From: a virus
Virus record (IMG/VR): IMGVR_UViG_3300032288_002471
Coordinates: 1-27,342 of that record
Direction: 5' to 3' (one strand)
DNA length: 27,342 bases
Positions within the stretch are counted from its first letter, which is position 1, and every line of letters begins with the position of its first letter. Position numbers and translations under genes: made by a program. Under the pieces are notes generated by a model that saw nothing but the letters and a program-made list of their open reading frames with translations, ran no database searches and had not been told where the DNA came from. Positions 1 to 14,296 of the stretch are shown here, piece by piece.

Positions 1-31
1 AATTCACTTGTGAATTAAGTTTATATTCTAG
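1..31. promoter_or_regulatory. Operator-like palindrome plus AT box, copy 1
   Basis: The element starts with the dyad AATTCAC-TT-GTGAATT and continues into AGTTTATATT. It matches 26 of 31 bases of the element at 779-809. Two of the five differences are paired (T3/A14 here, A/T there), so the symmetry is kept. It lies just beyond the terminator of the leftward operon, where a promoter for the next leftward unit outside the window would sit. A dimeric regulator site is the simplest reading. A two-base loop is too small for an RNA hairpin. The regulator is unknown. Confidence 0.5.
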
Positions 32-46
32 GGTTTTGGTGATAGT

Positions 47-78
47 AAAAAACAAAAAGGAAGAGCCGAAGCCCTTCC
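47..78 (-). terminator. Intrinsic terminator of the leftward micro-operon
   Basis: Read leftward, GGAAGGGC and GCTCTTCC (59-78) form an eight-pair stem with one G-U pair around a TTCG tetraloop, followed by T5, G and T6. It starts 20 bases beyond the last stop codon of the minus-strand genes, so it closes that transcript. Confidence 0.85.
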
Positions 79-97
79 CTTAATCTCTTGTGTAATC

Positions 98-274
98 CTA
101 ATGTCTGTATGCACTGTGTCTTGACTGTGCCTTTCTAACATCTTTAGCAACATAATACTTTCTGCCATTACCATGACATGAGTTCTTACTTGCACCGCAA
201 GACATTAAACATACTATTAGCATAACACACATGCCAATTAACATTCCTTTGATAACAATAGCTAGATTTTTCAT
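98..274 (-). CDS. Small lipoprotein-like secreted protein (58 aa)
   Basis: A 58-residue protein beginning MKNLAIVIKG, with a hydrophobic segment (about residues 4-25) that ends in LMSCG. This is a good lipobox with Cys26 as the candidate lipidated residue. The mature part is short, basic and rich in His, Ser and Tyr (ending HSAYRH). No family is recognised. Its start overlaps the stop of the upstream minus-strand gene in an ATGA junction, implying translational coupling, and a terminator follows. A phage lipoprotein of this size could act at the host envelope, for instance in superinfection exclusion, but that is inference from topology only. Confidence 0.7.
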   Translation of the reverse strand: MKNLAIVIKGMLIGMCVMLIVCLMSCGASKNSCHGNGRKYYVAKDVRKAQSRHSAYRH

Positions 275-417
275 TTTGATTTAATTTTAAAGACTCCATT
301 AGTGTGAGAGCCTTGGTTTAACAATTGATTCTTTTTCCAATAGCACAATGCTTTATTGGGAAATGTAAATGACTCCATAATAGTAGAGCCATTTACAATG
401 TATTCTAAACACCACAT
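271..417 (-). CDS. Small hypothetical protein (48 aa)
   Basis: A 48-residue protein (MWCLEYIVNGSTIMESFTF at its start) that is soluble-looking, aromatic and basic near the C-terminus (VFKIKSK). It has no membrane segment and no recognised family. Its ATG overlaps the stop of the gene before it (TAATG), and its own TGA overlaps the next start (ATGA). That tight packing in one frame chain is the main evidence that it is a real gene. Function unknown. Confidence 0.6.
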   Translation of the reverse strand: MWCLEYIVNGSTIMESFTFPNKALCYWKKNQLLNQGSHTNGVFKIKSK

Positions 418-581
418 TACTTTTTGAATAATGGGTAAGAACTATTTATCAAGAAGCATATTGCTGACAAGCACATTGCTGAACCTGCGAATACAAATGC
501 TTCTGAACTCTCCGCTGTCATAGCAGAGAAACAACTTACACCGCACATCAGTGTAAGTAAAAGGTTGAATAGATTTTTCAT
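417..581 (-). CDS. Small membrane or secreted protein (54 aa)
   Basis: A 54-residue protein beginning MKNLFNLLLTLMCGVSCFSA. One hydrophobic segment spans about residues 4-20, with Cys13 and Cys17 near a lipobox-like pattern, and a second spans about 28-46 (FVFAGSAMCLSAICFLI). The C-terminus is basic. It is either a two-pass membrane protein or a signal-peptide protein with one membrane anchor. The leader upstream (AACCCTTAA, then TTTCA before the ATG) resembles the leader of the 604-750 gene, which suggests a shared cassette origin. Function unknown. Confidence 0.65.
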   Translation of the reverse strand: MKNLFNLLLTLMCGVSCFSAMTAESSEAFVFAGSAMCLSAICFLINSSYPLFKK

Positions 582-603
582 GATTGAAATTTATTAAGGG
601 TTA

Positions 604-750
604 TTATTTACTAAATACTTCACACAATACTAAAGGCATAATGAGAGCTGGAACAGCAATTAAGCTTATTGCATAAGGTGTTACAGACATCAATAAGATT
701 GGTGTTAGCACTAATAGCACTGTAACCAAAACGGCAAGAACTTTTTTCAT
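604..750 (-). CDS. Small hydrophobic membrane protein (48 aa)
   Basis: A 48-residue protein starting MKKVLAVLVTVLLVLTPILL, hydrophobic almost throughout, with a second hydrophobic stretch (AISLIAVPALIMPLVL). Two short membrane helices, or a signal peptide plus one helix, are likely. It is the first gene of the leftward operon and lies about 30 bases downstream of the operator-like element at 779-809. Two successive stop codons (TAA TAA, 606-601) end it. No family is recognised. A membrane-acting early phage protein is a guess based on size, position and topology. Confidence 0.65.
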   Translation of the reverse strand: MKKVLAVLVTVLLVLTPILLMSVTPYAISLIAVPALIMPLVLCEVFSK

Positions 751-778
751 AAGTGAAATGTTTTTAAGGGTTTATATT

Positions 779-809
779 AAATCACTTGTGATTTAGGTTT
801 ATATTAAAG
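779..809. promoter_or_regulatory. Operator-like palindrome plus AT box, copy 2
   Basis: The dyad AAATCAC-TT-GTGATTT (779-794) is followed by GGTTTATATT (796-805). A further GGTTTATATT copy (769-778) flanks the dyad on the other side. Read leftward it places TAATATAAAC boxes on both sides of the dyad, directly ahead of the gene at 604-750. The 1-31 element is a near copy with compensating changes. It is a plausible regulated promoter for the leftward operon. No TAnnTTTG motif is seen here, so a different polymerase specificity is possible. Confidence 0.5.
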
Positions 810-1793: not shown

Positions 1794-1991
1794 ATGGATT
1801 TAAAATTAAATTTTGCAGGGCTTATTTCTGTATGGGGATCGGAATGGATCAGTTTACTCCAATGTATTACAGATATACTATTGGACAATCACTGGGACCT
1901 GTTAAGAGGAAAAAAGAACTATGTGAAACTGCGACTAAAATATTTAAGTCATAAGTATGTGGATACATCAAGGAAAAGAATTTATAGATGA
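1794..1991 (+). CDS. Small hypothetical protein (65 aa), frame uncertain
   Basis: A 65-residue frame with an amphipathic first half (FAGLISVWGSEWISLLQCI) and a basic second half. It overlaps the nuclease gene at 1957 by 35 bases. A competing frame, from the ATG at 1769 to 1954, abuts the nuclease start. I prefer this frame because its third codon positions are more AT-rich, its sequence looks more protein-like, and the candidate promoter would leave the 1769 ATG only a few bases of leader. No family is recognised. Only one of the two frames is likely to be real, and neither is certain. Confidence 0.4.
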   Translation: MDLKLNFAGLISVWGSEWISLLQCITDILLDNHWDLLRGKKNYVKLRLKYLSHKYVDTSRKRIYR

Positions 1992-2373
1992 AATGATTCC
2001 GGAAGGAGCAGTTGGTTTTGTTTATGAAATGATTTCTATTATTGATGGAAAACCGGTGAGGTATATTGGCAAAAAGAATTTCTTTGCTGATGTAAAAACT
2101 AAGTTGGGTAAAAAAGAATTACCTACAGATAAAAGATTAAAGACTTATAAAAGAGTAAAACGAAGTACATATAAGAATTACTACAGTAGTAATGAAGTGT
2201 TGAAGAAAGCTCATGCAGAAGGAGTGACTATTAAAAGAGAAATACTACATATCTGTTATAGTAAGTTAGAACTTTCATACTACGAATGCAAATACCAGTT
2301 TGCATTAGGTGTATTAGAGAGTGATGAGTTCTTAAATGGGAACATACTTGGTAAATTTTATAAACTAAAATAA
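1957..2373 (+). CDS. Seg-like GIY-YIG family nuclease (138 aa)
   Basis: The protein has the compact GIY-YIG layout: GFVY at residues 20-23, YIGKK at 36-40, the NYYSSNE segment (74-80), a candidate catalytic Glu110 in SYYECKYQF, and the C-terminal NGNILGKF. Small phage proteins of this kind start MWI, contain LGKKEL and are annotated as Seg-like homing endonucleases. GIY-YIG enzymes cut DNA using a divalent metal. The MWI start at 1957 fits that family, even though an upstream frame overlaps it. It could be a free-standing homing endonuclease or a domesticated repair or host-attack nuclease. No intron is visible. The next gene starts right after its stop. Confidence 0.75.
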   Translation: MWIHQGKEFIDEMIPEGAVGFVYEMISIIDGKPVRYIGKKNFFADVKTKLGKKELPTDKRLKTYKRVKRSTYKNYYSSNEVLKKAHAEGVTIKREILHICYSKLELSYYECKYQFALGVLESDEFLNGNILGKFYKLK

Positions 2374-3166: not shown

Positions 3167-3448
3167 ATGATCTATCAAGGTAAAGTTGTCATTTTAGACA
3201 AACCGGTTTATGAACCAAAAATTAAAGGATTGGAGTTAAGTCCTGCTGATCAAGCAATCATTGAAGCAGATTTAGTAAAACATTACACTCGTCTTACAGT
3301 ACATGCAGTTGGAGAAGAAGTAACTTTCTGCAAACCTGGAGATGAAGTAATGGTAACTCCTCGTCAATTATCTTACTGTGATGTAATAGATATTGAAGGA
3401 AATACTAAATTTATATCCAAAGAAGCTGATTGTATTGCCAAATACTAA
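3167..3448 (+). CDS. GroES-like co-chaperonin candidate (93 aa)
   Basis: The length (93 aa) and pattern resemble GroES. There is an N-terminal beta strand (KVVILDKPVYEPK), a mobile-loop-like middle, then GEEVTFCKPGDEVMV (residues 49-63) and a terminal segment with IEGNTKFISKEADCIAKY, comparable to the end of GroES (read-out strand followed by an acidic turn). GroES caps the GroEL folding cage. Phage versions such as T4 gp31 help fold the capsid protein. Identity to GroES is low by eye, so the assignment rests on strand order and length. It is the last gene before a strong terminator and the structural region. Confidence 0.5.
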   Translation: MIYQGKVVILDKPVYEPKIKGLELSPADQAIIEADLVKHYTRLTVHAVGEEVTFCKPGDEVMVTPRQLSYCDVIDIEGNTKFISKEADCIAKY

Positions 3449-3466
3449 GCCTTACTTAAACTACAG

Positions 3467-3497
3467 AAGACCTTGTTAGCGCAAGGTCTTTTTTTTT
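3467..3497 (+). terminator. Intrinsic terminator
   Basis: AAGACCTTG (3467-3475) pairs with CAAGGTCTT (3482-3490) around TTAGCG, followed by a run of T. It closes the accessory operon 19 bases after the GroES-like gene. Confidence 0.9.
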
Positions 3498-3500
3498 GTT

Positions 3501-3508
3501 TATATTTG
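3501..3508 (+). promoter_or_regulatory. Candidate -7 box TATATTTG before tail-fibre genes
   Basis: TATATTTG matches TAnnTTTG and follows a terminator. The same octamer precedes the genes at 11884 and 23219. The predicted start near 3515 leaves a leader of about 50 bases with an A-rich run before the ATG at 3568. No clear -33 box is seen. Confidence 0.5.
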
Positions 3509-3567
3509 TTGCATAAACAAAAAGTTTTTTGTATATTATTAGATATTGTTTATTAAATTCATAAATT

Positions 3568-4992
3568 ATGTCCATTATAAATTCAGACGGTTTAAATACC
3601 AACTGGCAGTTAAATGTTTTAAGAGGACTGCAGGCTATTGCAGATGAGGTAGCAAAACCTCTTACCTGTGCCGAAGACGGAATTACAATATGTTCTCCAG
3701 TAAATGGTTTAAATGTTAATGTTCATGATGCTTTAGGCAATGATATTACAAGTACACCGGTTGGTCCAGATAGAGGATTAGATGTTAATATTATAGGAGG
3801 TGTTACCTTAGAAGTTAATCTAGATGCTGCTAATGACGAAGTAGGTATTTATGGTTATAATGGTACAACACCTACTCCAATTTCTGTAGATTCAAATGGT
3901 TTTTTAAATACAAACGTAATATTTCCTTCATCTTTAGCAGTAACACAAGATCCAAGTTCAGATCCTTGGACAGTAGATGCTAGTGATTTAGACATCAGGG
4001 ATCTTTTATTTGCTACAGATAAAGTAGATGTAAGTGGTTCAAATATTAATGCTATTATAACTGGACCTTTAGGAGTACAAGCAGATTGTGCAGATGCAAT
4101 ATCTACAACATTATGTCAAACTCAAGAAGATATTTTAACTGCAATTAAAGATGCAGTAGAAGGAACTGTAGATGTAAATATAGTAAGTGGTGTAACTTTA
4201 GAAGTTAATCTGGATCCAGATTTCGATGGAGTAACAATATATGGTTCTAATCCAACTGTTCCTATTCTTACTGATGGTGCTGGTCATCTTCAAGTAGATA
4301 TTCTTACAATTCCAGAAGTTGAAATAAAGAATGACGCAGGAAATCCTATTCCAGTAAATGGAACGGTTGCTGCTACACAATCAGGAACTTGGACAGCTGC
4401 AATTTCATCATTACCAGCTATAACAGGAACAGTTGCGCTAGATACTGCTACTCTTGCTGCTTTGGAAACAGTGACTGTCAATCAAGGAACATCTCCTTGG
4501 GTTGTATCAGCAAATGATTTAGATATTAGAAATCTAACTTTTGCTACAGATAAGGTAGATGTGTCAGGTTCTTCTGTTACGATTACTGATGGCACTGATA
4601 ATTTAGCAATTGATTTAAATGGCAGTATAAGTTCAAATTTATATGCAAATGATTTAGTATCGGGATCACCTGAGTTAGTAACTACAACAGGTGGAATAGG
4701 GTATCAAGCATTAGATGTAAATGTTGTAGCTCCTATAAATACAATTACACCTAATATATTATCTGTTACAGGTAGTGGTGTTATTGCACCTGCTGTATAT
4801 TCAATTACATTTTTTAATAGTGGACCTGATGATGAAGTAATATCATTTGATGGTGGTGCTACACCTGTAGTTCTGTCACCAGGAGTTTCTGTTACAATGG
4901 ATGCAGGAGGAATAGCTAATAAATATCCAGCAGGAGTATTTGCATATGATGTTATAGGAACAGGACCAATTATTATAACGTATAACTCTTAA
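3568..4992 (+). CDS. Tail-fibre or virion surface protein with tandem modules (474 aa)
   Basis: A beta-rich protein with low Lys/Arg and high Val, Thr, Asn and Gly, typical of phage fibres. It is built from two copies of a two-part module. The first part has the pattern VTLEVNLD...V.IYG.N (about residues 79-100 and 209-230). The second has DLDIR.L.FATDKVDVSGS (about 140-159 and 314-333). The N-terminal 35 residues (NTNWQLNVLRGLQAIADEV) look helical and may be the virion anchor. The C-terminus (from about 400) resembles a small beta-sandwich. It is the first gene of the rightward structural run and ends three bases before the next fibre gene. The host ligand is unknown. Confidence 0.7.
   Translation: MSIINSDGLNTNWQLNVLRGLQAIADEVAKPLTCAEDGITICSPVNGLNVNVHDALGNDITSTPVGPDRGLDVNIIGGVTLEVNLDAANDEVGIYGYNGTTPTPISVDSNGFLNTNVIFPSSLAVTQDPSSDPWTVDASDLDIRDLLFATDKVDVSGSNINAIITGPLGVQADCADAISTTLCQTQEDILTAIKDAVEGTVDVNIVSGVTLEVNLDPDFDGVTIYGSNPTVPILTDGAGHLQVDILTIPEVEIKNDAGNPIPVNGTVAATQSGTWTAAISSLPAITGTVALDTATLAALETVTVNQGTSPWVVSANDLDIRNLTFATDKVDVSGSSVTITDGTDNLAIDLNGSISSNLYANDLVSGSPELVTTTGGIGYQALDVNVVAPINTITPNILSVTGSGVIAPAVYSITFFNSGPDDEVISFDGGATPVVLSPGVSVTMDAGGIANKYPAGVFAYDVIGTGPIIITYNS
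3781..4578 (+). repeat. Duplicated coding modules inside the fibre gene
   Basis: Two sequence blocks appear twice in the order A-B-A-B. Block A is at about 3781-3888 and 4171-4266. Block B is at about 3958-4040 and 4495-4578. Protein similarity is higher than DNA similarity, with many silent differences, so the duplication is not recent. Confidence 0.65.
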
Positions 4993-12894: not shown

Positions 12895-13159
12895 TATCTT
12901 TAAAACTGAACATGTAGAAGAAATTGCAAAAGAAAGATGGACTATTTGTGAAGGTTGTCCAGTTCTTGATAAAGAAGGAACAAAGTGCGTTGTTCCTGGA
13001 ACCGGTCCTTGTTGTGGAGAATGTGGATGTAGTATGGGATTAAAATTAAGATCACTTGGTTCTGAATGCCCTTTAAAAAAATGGGATGCGGTGTTATCTC
13101 ATGAAGAAAGTTATTTACTACAAAAAAAATTAAGCGATGAGTCAGAAGAAACTAAGTAG
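12833..13159 (+). CDS. Small zinc-ribbon-like cysteine protein (108 aa)
   Basis: Eight cysteines lie at residues 39, 42, 52, 60, 61, 64, 66 and 79. They form CEGCP, CCGECGC and ECPLKKW patterns that fit a rubredoxin or zinc-ribbon knuckle. The N-terminal 35 residues are a helix (ILEGIKNNIFKTEHVEEIAK) of a kind seen in similar phage proteins. Zinc binding is inferred. The target could be DNA or another packaging protein. No other ATG, GTG or TTG lies between 12833 and the cysteine core, so the 62-base overlap with the IHF-like gene appears genuine. It overlaps the next gene by 23 bases. Confidence 0.7.
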   Translation: MKSVIKIWKSKGQILEGIKNNIFKTEHVEEIAKERWTICEGCPVLDKEGTKCVVPGTGPCCGECGCSMGLKLRSLGSECPLKKWDAVLSHEESYLLQKKLSDESEETK

Positions 13160-13457
13160 TTTATTAAATGCAGGTGTTGTACCAATTAATCCTAATGATT
13201 CAATAAATGATTTTTCTCAAGGATTATGGAGTCAGATAACTCAAAATAATGCAAATATTTATGATCCATACAAAACCGTATCAATTTCTGCAGATGAAAA
13301 AGAGTATTTGGAAACTATTGCTCTTGCAGCAGATTTATTAGCCGGTGAAGTAATTACACCTCAAGAGTATTTTAAACTTAAACTACTACTTAAAAGTAAA
13401 GATGAAGAAGTTAGAAATACAGGAATTATATTCTTAAATCTAAAAGGAAAATTATGA
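13137..13457 (+). CDS. Small hypothetical protein (106 aa)
   Basis: A 106-residue, mostly helical protein with an Asn/Asp-rich N-terminal third (PINPNDSINDFSQGLWSQIT) and a helical C-terminal part (EKEYLETIALAADLLAGEV). It has no recognised motif. It overlaps the zinc-binding gene by 23 bases and the nuclease gene by four (ATGA), so it belongs to a tightly coupled set. Function unknown. Confidence 0.65.
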   Translation: MSQKKLSSLLNAGVVPINPNDSINDFSQGLWSQITQNNANIYDPYKTVSISADEKEYLETIALAADLLAGEVITPQEYFKLKLLLKSKDEEVRNTGIIFLNLKGKL

Positions 13458-14296
13458 GTTTAAAATTTTACGCAGATGATCATAAGTATGTAAGTTCAGA
13501 TGAAGAAGTTGAAAAAATAGAATGGATAAGTGTTACAAGATTAATTCATTTCTTTAAAGAACCTTTTAATAAAATAAAACAAGCAGACCTTGCTTCTAAA
13601 GGAAAAAACCCTAAATACAATAAACTAACACCACAACAAATTATAGATTTGTGGGATAGTGAAAACAAAAGGGCAATTAAGCTTGGTTCTTGGTATCATG
13701 ACCAAAGAGAAAAAGATTTACTTTCTTGCAACAGCATTACGCGACAAGGCAAAGAACTTGAAATTATAAGTCCTTTGATGGATGGAGATATTAAACTGGC
13801 TCCAGTACAACAACTGGTAGAAGGAATATATCCTGAACACTTTGTTTATTTAAAATCCGTTGGTATTTGTGGACAATCAGATAGAGCTGAAGTAGTTTTT
13901 GAATTTGTAGATGTATATGATTATAAAACTAATAAAGAAATTAAAAAGGAAGGATTTAAAGATAAGTCTGGAAAATCTAAAAAAATGCTTCCTCCGTTGT
14001 CCCATTTAGATGATTGCAATTATAATGATTATGCATTACAGTTAAGTACCTATATGTATATTATTTTAAAACACAATCACCAACTAAAACCTGGTAAAAT
14101 TCAATTAGATCATGTTGAATTTGAAATTGACCATTATGATAAAAATGGTTATCCGGTAGTGGCAACTGATGCAATGGGTGATCCATTGGTAAAAAATGTA
14201 ACACCGTATGAATTACCATACATGAAAAAAGAAGTAATTGCAATGTTTAAATATGTGCAAGAAAACAGAGAAAAAATACTAAGTCATGGCCATTAA
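13454..14296 (+). CDS. PD-(D/E)XK (RecB/exonuclease-like) nuclease (280 aa)
   Basis: This is a RecB-family nuclease core of about 280 residues. It has the early motif GSWYHDQRE (78-86), with His82 and Glu86, then GICGQSDRAEVV (137-148), with Asp143, and VDVYDYKTNK (152-161), with Asp156 and Lys158. ALQLSTYMYII (194-204) carries the RecB-type Gln196 and Tyr200. These enzymes cut DNA with a divalent metal. In this operon, just upstream of terminase, it could process DNA ends, degrade host DNA or take part in recombination and packaging. The start overlaps the preceding stop (ATGA), and the end overlaps the next gene by 11 bases. Confidence 0.85.
   Translation: MSLKFYADDHKYVSSDEEVEKIEWISVTRLIHFFKEPFNKIKQADLASKGKNPKYNKLTPQQIIDLWDSENKRAIKLGSWYHDQREKDLLSCNSITRQGKELEIISPLMDGDIKLAPVQQLVEGIYPEHFVYLKSVGICGQSDRAEVVFEFVDVYDYKTNKEIKKEGFKDKSGKSKKMLPPLSHLDDCNYNDYALQLSTYMYIILKHNHQLKPGKIQLDHVEFEIDHYDKNGYPVVATDAMGDPLVKNVTPYELPYMKKEVIAMFKYVQENREKILSHGH

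Follow-up and report, generated by a model that had tools for sequence, protein, structure and literature searches.

Uncultured crAss-like phages of one freshwater group were found to carry a short module, an AT-rich box followed by a small hairpin, that is confined to the beginning of their leftward gene arm. We tentatively read it as an early start module comparable to the hairpin promoters of phage N4, which would serve an injected RNA polymerase and in which the hairpin would most likely act as DNA. The module was recognised from two similar 31-base elements at the left end of a viral contig of 27,342 nucleotides (IMG/VR record IMGVR_UViG_3300032288_002471), which in its full length is called the window (WIN) here. 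The original prediction had described these elements as a repeated promoter-operator cassette that brackets a leftward operon of four tiny genes.

The terminase (TerL), portal and major head protein of the window matched head and packaging families of PHROGs, and the terminase was 23-25% identical (tblastn) to those of gut crAss phages and Flavobacterium phages. Judged by these protein matches, the window is a fragment of a crAss-like phage; homology to the giant virion RNA polymerase (vRNAP) of such phages was seen in relatives, the window not extending to that gene. No close DNA relatives were found among named phages. As the window is a fragment, the remaining genome was examined through its relatives. 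A terminase scan of IMG/VR yielded 76 related loci, from which several relatives were taken whole or nearly whole (G024, L003 and similar labels are working names for IMG/VR records). The features of the left part of the window were as follows, the two elements being named P1 and P2.

1..16, minus strand: hairpin of P2, AATTCAC(AA)GTGAATT
17..31, minus strand: box of P2, CTAGAATATAAACTT, with AATATAAAC at 19-27
39..48, minus strand: TTACTATCAC motif between the terminator and P2; in relatives a motif of the leftward strand only
54..78, minus strand: terminator of the micro-operon, GGAAGGGC(TTCG)GCTCTTCC followed by TTTTT, a UUCG hairpin on the sense strand that is conserved in relatives
98..274, minus strand: leftward gene 4, 58 aa, lipoprotein-like with a signal peptide ending in LMSC (lipobox read by eye)
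271..417, minus strand: leftward gene 3, 48 aa, the best conserved gene of the micro-operon, with relatives in many other contigs
417..581, minus strand: leftward gene 2, 54 aa, small hydrophobic protein; in L003 and G038 the first gene encodes its homologue
604..750, minus strand: leftward gene 1, 48 aa, small hydrophobic protein whose homologue opens the operon in G006 and G011
770..778, minus strand: second AATATAAAC box, adjoining the P1 hairpin on its downstream side
778..795, minus strand (leftward sense): hairpin of P1, TAAATCAC(AA)GTGATTTA, with 8-bp arms, identical in L003
796..809, minus strand: upstream box of P1, TTTAATATAAACC, ending just before the hairpin and common to P2
1148..1155, plus strand: -7 box of Bacteroidetes type (TAnnTTTG), TAACTTTG; the first rightward gene follows 5 nt later, with its ATG at 1160

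The 31-mers AATTCACTTGTGAATTAAGTTTATATTCTAG (1-31) and AAATCACTTGTGATTTAGGTTTATATTAAAG (779-809) were identical at 26 of 31 positions, and the mismatches lay at 3, 14, 18, 28 and 29, exactly the five differences reported originally. The swap at 3 and 14 was indeed compensating, with the pairing of the dyad kept. An AT box beside each palindrome was also confirmed, but the third box at 770-778 had been overlooked: the second palindrome reaches from 778 to 795 and carries a AATATAAAC-type box on both of its sides on the leftward strand. On the template (plus) strand the loop of the P1 hairpin reads C-TT-G. The first base of the contig is the first base of the P2 palindrome, and the sequence downstream of P2 is therefore missing. 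The sequence TCACTTGTGA occurred exactly twice in the 27,342-base record, both times on the same strand. In 200 dinucleotide shuffles of the window the best match to the 31-mer at 779-809 averaged 20.4 and never exceeded 24, against the observed 26. No hairpins in the window other than P1 and P2 combined arms of at least 6 with C(AA)G or C(TT)G as their centre; since the shuffled window held a mean of 0.37 and a maximum of 2 hairpins of this class, the number of palindromes is not decisive by itself. What is remarkable is the common box, the compensated changes and the conservation in relatives, rather than the number.

Between the elements the predicted leftward unit of four genes was present as four leftward open reading frames, the order of which was largely kept in relatives. 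None of the four proteins matched a Pfam or PHROGs family above the cut-off. The gene 3 protein (271-417) follows the pattern NGSTxxESFTFPNKALCxWKKN and has relatives in about 70 viral contigs; the contigs sampled among these were mostly without the box-hairpin. A leader of the form AACCCTTAA..ATG is common to small leftward genes, for example at 582-600 and 751-775 (minus strand) of the window, and is probably a translation-start context. The stretch 820-1080, between P1 and the rightward genes, is of low complexity and rich in GA and CA, and relatives keep this character but not the sequence; this junction could be an origin or packaging region. One early rightward gene (1957-2373, plus strand) encodes a SegE-type GIY-YIG endonuclease (Pfam PF19835, E 3.6e-21).

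About 13 related contigs carried the module, always on the leftward strand. P1 sits at the divergent junction, ahead of the first leftward gene, and P2 follows the UUCG terminator of the micro-operon. Both were syntenic in the window, L003, G006, G010, G002/G003, G019, G027, G029, G030 and G038, and also in G024, while a box-hairpin at one or both places was seen in L143, L149, L224, G008, G011 and G012. The copies that could be placed all lay on the leftward strand, in the initial few kilobases of the leftward arm, and no copies were found elsewhere in the arms or genomes scanned. Each of the placed copies headed a leftward unit, as had been proposed.

The module consists of an AT-rich box of about ATnnTAAAY (leftward strand), 1-3 nt and then a hairpin with a stem of 5-8 bp. 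L003 carried P1 letter for letter over about 60 bases, before a leftward operon that starts with the gene 2 homologue; its P2, behind the lipoprotein gene, had the same box and another palindrome, AAACGC(AAA)GCGTTT. On the leftward strand G006 contained TATCCTAAACTT before AAAATCTC(AA)GAGATTTT and CTATCCTAAACTT before AAAGTCAC(AA)GTGACTTT, G019 contained CATACATAAACT before AAAATCAC(AA)GTGATTTT and CATACATAAATCA before AAAACAC(AA)GTGTTTT, and G030 contained ATTCTAAATAT before AAGTTC(TTAC)GAACTT plus four more. Within a genome the box was constant and between genomes it drifted, which is the pattern expected of sites that are read by one shared factor. The box of G024 differed from the rest, and this genome was counted as being without it; stems were short or bulged in G038, G008 and G011. 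Box models trained without the clade under test (leave-clade-out) found the elements again in the window (P1), L003 (two), G006 (two) and G030 (five, inside 2.2 kb of the 82-kb record, the fifth copy being added by the model). The same models missed the divergent boxes of G019, G027, G003, G038, G008 and G011 as well as P2 at the end of the window, so the box is not universal.

When the box was ignored, all C(AA)G or C(TT)G hairpins of at least 6 bp were exactly P1 and P2 in 85 kb of G003, in 25 kb of G019 and in the window. A hairpin scan around the ATGs of four long genomes revealed no genome-wide hairpin class, and the element is therefore local rather than a generic leader. No such module was found in a search of phi14:2, FpV21 and crAss001, nor were GNA-type hairpins found in 15-20 kb of each of the more distant relatives (TerL 51-54%). 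A pattern scan for hairpins of the G024 type gave matches beyond G024 in unrelated contexts only, and Rfam returned nothing above the gathering score for the window, L003, L224, L105 and parts of G029 and G008.

The stems varied jointly on both sides. Stem pairs 2-5 were Watson-Crick without exception (100%) in a set of 22 elements, with three to four pair types used at each position; when the 3' arms were re-dealt among these elements, the mean pairing at 2-5 was 38% and the highest value 61%. Of 35 stem pairs that differed inside a genome, 31 had changed on both sides. The loop was 2 to 5 nt long, and its C-G closing pair was kept in 21 of the 22 elements. This set is partly biased, and because several of its elements had been collected through hairpin searches, the pairing was checked in two ways that carry less bias. 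One was a scan of 2.9 million IMG/VR contigs in which the variable stem positions were left free; it showed pairing over 8 bp in every match from the clade, against 1-4 bp in seven of eight matches from unrelated contexts. The other was the count of C(AA)G and C(TT)G hairpins given above, which made no use of the box and found just P1 and P2. The selection on symmetry that had been proposed from the two window elements thus gained support from the whole group.

On the rightward arm these phages have Bacteroidetes sigma promoters (TTTG ... TAnnTTTG) before their genes, and the leftward box ATnnTAAAY does not match these. TAnnTTTG just before an ATG was commoner for rightward genes, though the excess was modest (29 versus 8, summed over six genomes). 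A leftward TAnnTTTG within 450 bases upstream of P1 was absent in 10 of 12 genomes, the window included, and P1 would therefore have to carry the leftward start.

The hairpins resemble the early promoters P1-P3 of phage N4 (Schitoviridae) in several respects. N4 promoters are small hairpins, one at each early start, with a stem of 4-7 bp and a loop of 3 nt; they have a C:G closing pair and a template loop with 5'G and 3'A, leave the other stem letters free as long as they pair, and occur in few copies at the early end; the template of N4 P1 is GTTGC-GAA-GCAAC. Transcription from a promoter of this type starts about 11 nt downstream of the loop and needs gyrase and single-stranded DNA-binding protein. 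The module likewise occurs in few copies confined to the early genome end, where they head early units, and as small hairpins whose stem letters vary while pairing is kept. Template-strand loops (the plus strand of the window) were GAA, GGA, GTAA, GCAA, GAGA and once AAA in G029, G030 and G024, closed by C-G. The loop length was 3 nt in G024 and in three copies of G029, 4 nt in G030 and 2 nt in the window group. G024 held six hairpins of 5 bp and 3 nt on the intergenic leftward sense strand, the P1 and P2 places included; antisense copies were absent, and 20 kb of the late arm contained no hairpin of this kind. Across all records, 24 noncoding hairpins whose sense loop was TNC or TNNC closed by C lay on the leftward strand in the junction and the leftward arm, where the opposite kind numbered 0; several of them stemmed from a separate structured region. 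This preference for the template strand is no general habit, since the terminators of the same phages use sense UUCG loops. The folding energies of the hairpins as DNA were -2.3 to -5.5 kcal/mol, near or beyond that of N4 P1 (-2.7). The likeness has limits, however. The N4 loop rule is followed in G024 and mostly in G029 and G030, whereas the window group has C-TT-G loops, and the conserved box upstream of the hairpin has no counterpart in N4. Both systems have a giant injected RNA polymerase, but the N4 enzyme is T7-like and that of crAss-like phages is a two-barrel enzyme with a DFDID motif from an unrelated family, the type to which the giant protein of the relatives belongs. As neither the loop rule nor the polymerase family applies in the window's group, we did not file the module as an N4 promoter.

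This giant protein has 3,400-4,100 residues in the long relatives and carries the motif PGVRIPTQGP...D(F/Y)DID. It is homologous to gp77 of phi14:2 (2,180 aa; BLASTP 1e-10 to 1e-14, hmmsearch 4.5e-25), and by length and motif gp77 would be the characterised crAss-like virion RNA polymerase. We take gp77 to be the protein called gp66 in the literature. A sequence search with the giant protein against PDB gave no match. Like phi14:2 and crAss001, the relatives combine a homologous DFDID protein with an early arm opposed to a late structural arm; phi14:2 and crAss001 differ in that no equivalent module was found in them. According to a review (PMC10136315), the crAss-like vRNAP transcribes early genes independently of the host RNA polymerase, which in turn probably serves the late genes; such a division fits the two kinds of signals on the two arms.

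On our preferred reading, the first part of the genome would enter the cell and supercoiling would let the small template-strand hairpin form. The RNA polymerase packaged in the virion and injected with the DNA would then recognise box and hairpin and start transcription just downstream. P1 would fire the leftward arm at the divergent junction, and P2 the unit that follows the micro-operon's terminator. With slightly more reserve we consider that in this clade an injected polymerase of the two-barrel, cellular type may read hairpin early promoters as a convergent counterpart of N4, in which box and loop would be lineage-specific and co-evolve with the polymerase.

The main rival is that the box alone is the phage promoter, with the start at its end, and that the hairpin forms the 5' end of the mRNA, where it is protective or bound by a phage RNA-binding protein. 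The hairpin would then lie in a 5' leader 25-130 nt before the ATG at near-constant spacing to the box, long leaders follow it in L224 and G029, and the variable loops and stem covariation suit RNA as well as DNA. Yet the hairpins of the window group are weak as RNA (-1.4 to -3.7 kcal/mol), and the sense loops are UNC, UNNC or a CAAG tetraloop instead of GNRA or of the UUCG found in the terminators. G-U pairs are also absent from the first five stem positions, a count biased by the collecting of perfect pairing. We regard this explanation as somewhat unlikely. The original view of the palindromes as operators for a dimeric phage protein beside a promoter would explain the perfect dyads next to a start signal, as known from dimeric repressors, and the similar half-sites AAAnTCnC in the closest relatives of the window. 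A dimer needs no joint change of both half-sites, however, and half-sites inside one genome differed while remaining perfectly symmetric; at P2 of L003 the same box is combined with an unrelated half-site, AAACGC. Neither a conserved half-site nor a constant spacing per genome was seen, the dyad spacing shifting between 2, 3 and 4 nt. Since the stems differ but pair and the loop length varies, a hairpin is indicated rather than a dimer operator. From the proposed cassette the repeated box with its palindrome was retained, whereas the operator, with the box and not the half-sites conserved, now appears decidedly unlikely.

Another motif, TTACTATCA or one that went unseen, might instead be the real promoter, and the box-hairpin a later element for regulation, processing or translation. 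In four long relatives TTACTATC[AC] was confined to the leftward strand, usually right behind terminators and upstream of P2. The motif was absent upstream of P1, the start of the leftward arm, in the genomes examined, and its distance to the box varied from about 20 to 158 nt, so we consider such a role unlikely. That the palindromes are terminators or chance repeats could be argued from the few hairpins per genome, a number that in G003 (2 versus 1.3) is near the shuffle expectation. At P1, which opens the arm at a divergent junction, there is nothing leftward upstream to terminate, and most copies lack the U-run that follows the stable stem of a terminator where a unit ends, while real terminators nearby, such as the separate one at 54-78, have UUCG stems and U-runs. 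With box, synteny and pairing conserved, we disfavour this explanation as highly improbable.

Further conserved elements were observed. The motif TTACTATCA[CT] occurred 8/0, 9/0, 7/0 and 6/0 times on the leftward/other strand of L107, L104, L117 and L111, sometimes inside genes. Most copies directly followed a terminator close to where the leftward arm begins (39-48, minus strand, in the window), and the motif is possibly another promoter class. A conserved, hairpin-rich noncoding stretch (GTGTCGGCTCATTGAAACC..GGTTTC..) was located between early genes in L107 (about 13110-13460; G008 27113-27454) and at homologous places in G038, G011, L143, G006, G003, G030, G029 and G027, often flanked by TTACTATCA. 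It had no match in Rfam and is a candidate noncoding RNA. Long leaders directly downstream of the box-hairpin were present in L224 (about 2115-2330) and G029 (61735-62190; L117 about 3236-3690). These otherwise distant phages share GATTAACTGAACAAAyGATGTTTC inside a stem and were the sole two IMG/VR contigs with that sequence.

In the literature searched, no account was found of the way in which crAss-like phages direct their giant virion RNA polymerase to its early promoters, nor any promoter motif for this enzyme. The module represents a concrete candidate in sequence and structure that is testable with short DNA templates. If our preferred reading of an injected polymerase recognising box and hairpin is true, it would add an independently evolved second example of early transcription in which hairpins guide an injected polymerase, and the module may reveal by what signal the crAss-like RNA polymerase, once injected, locates the early genes.
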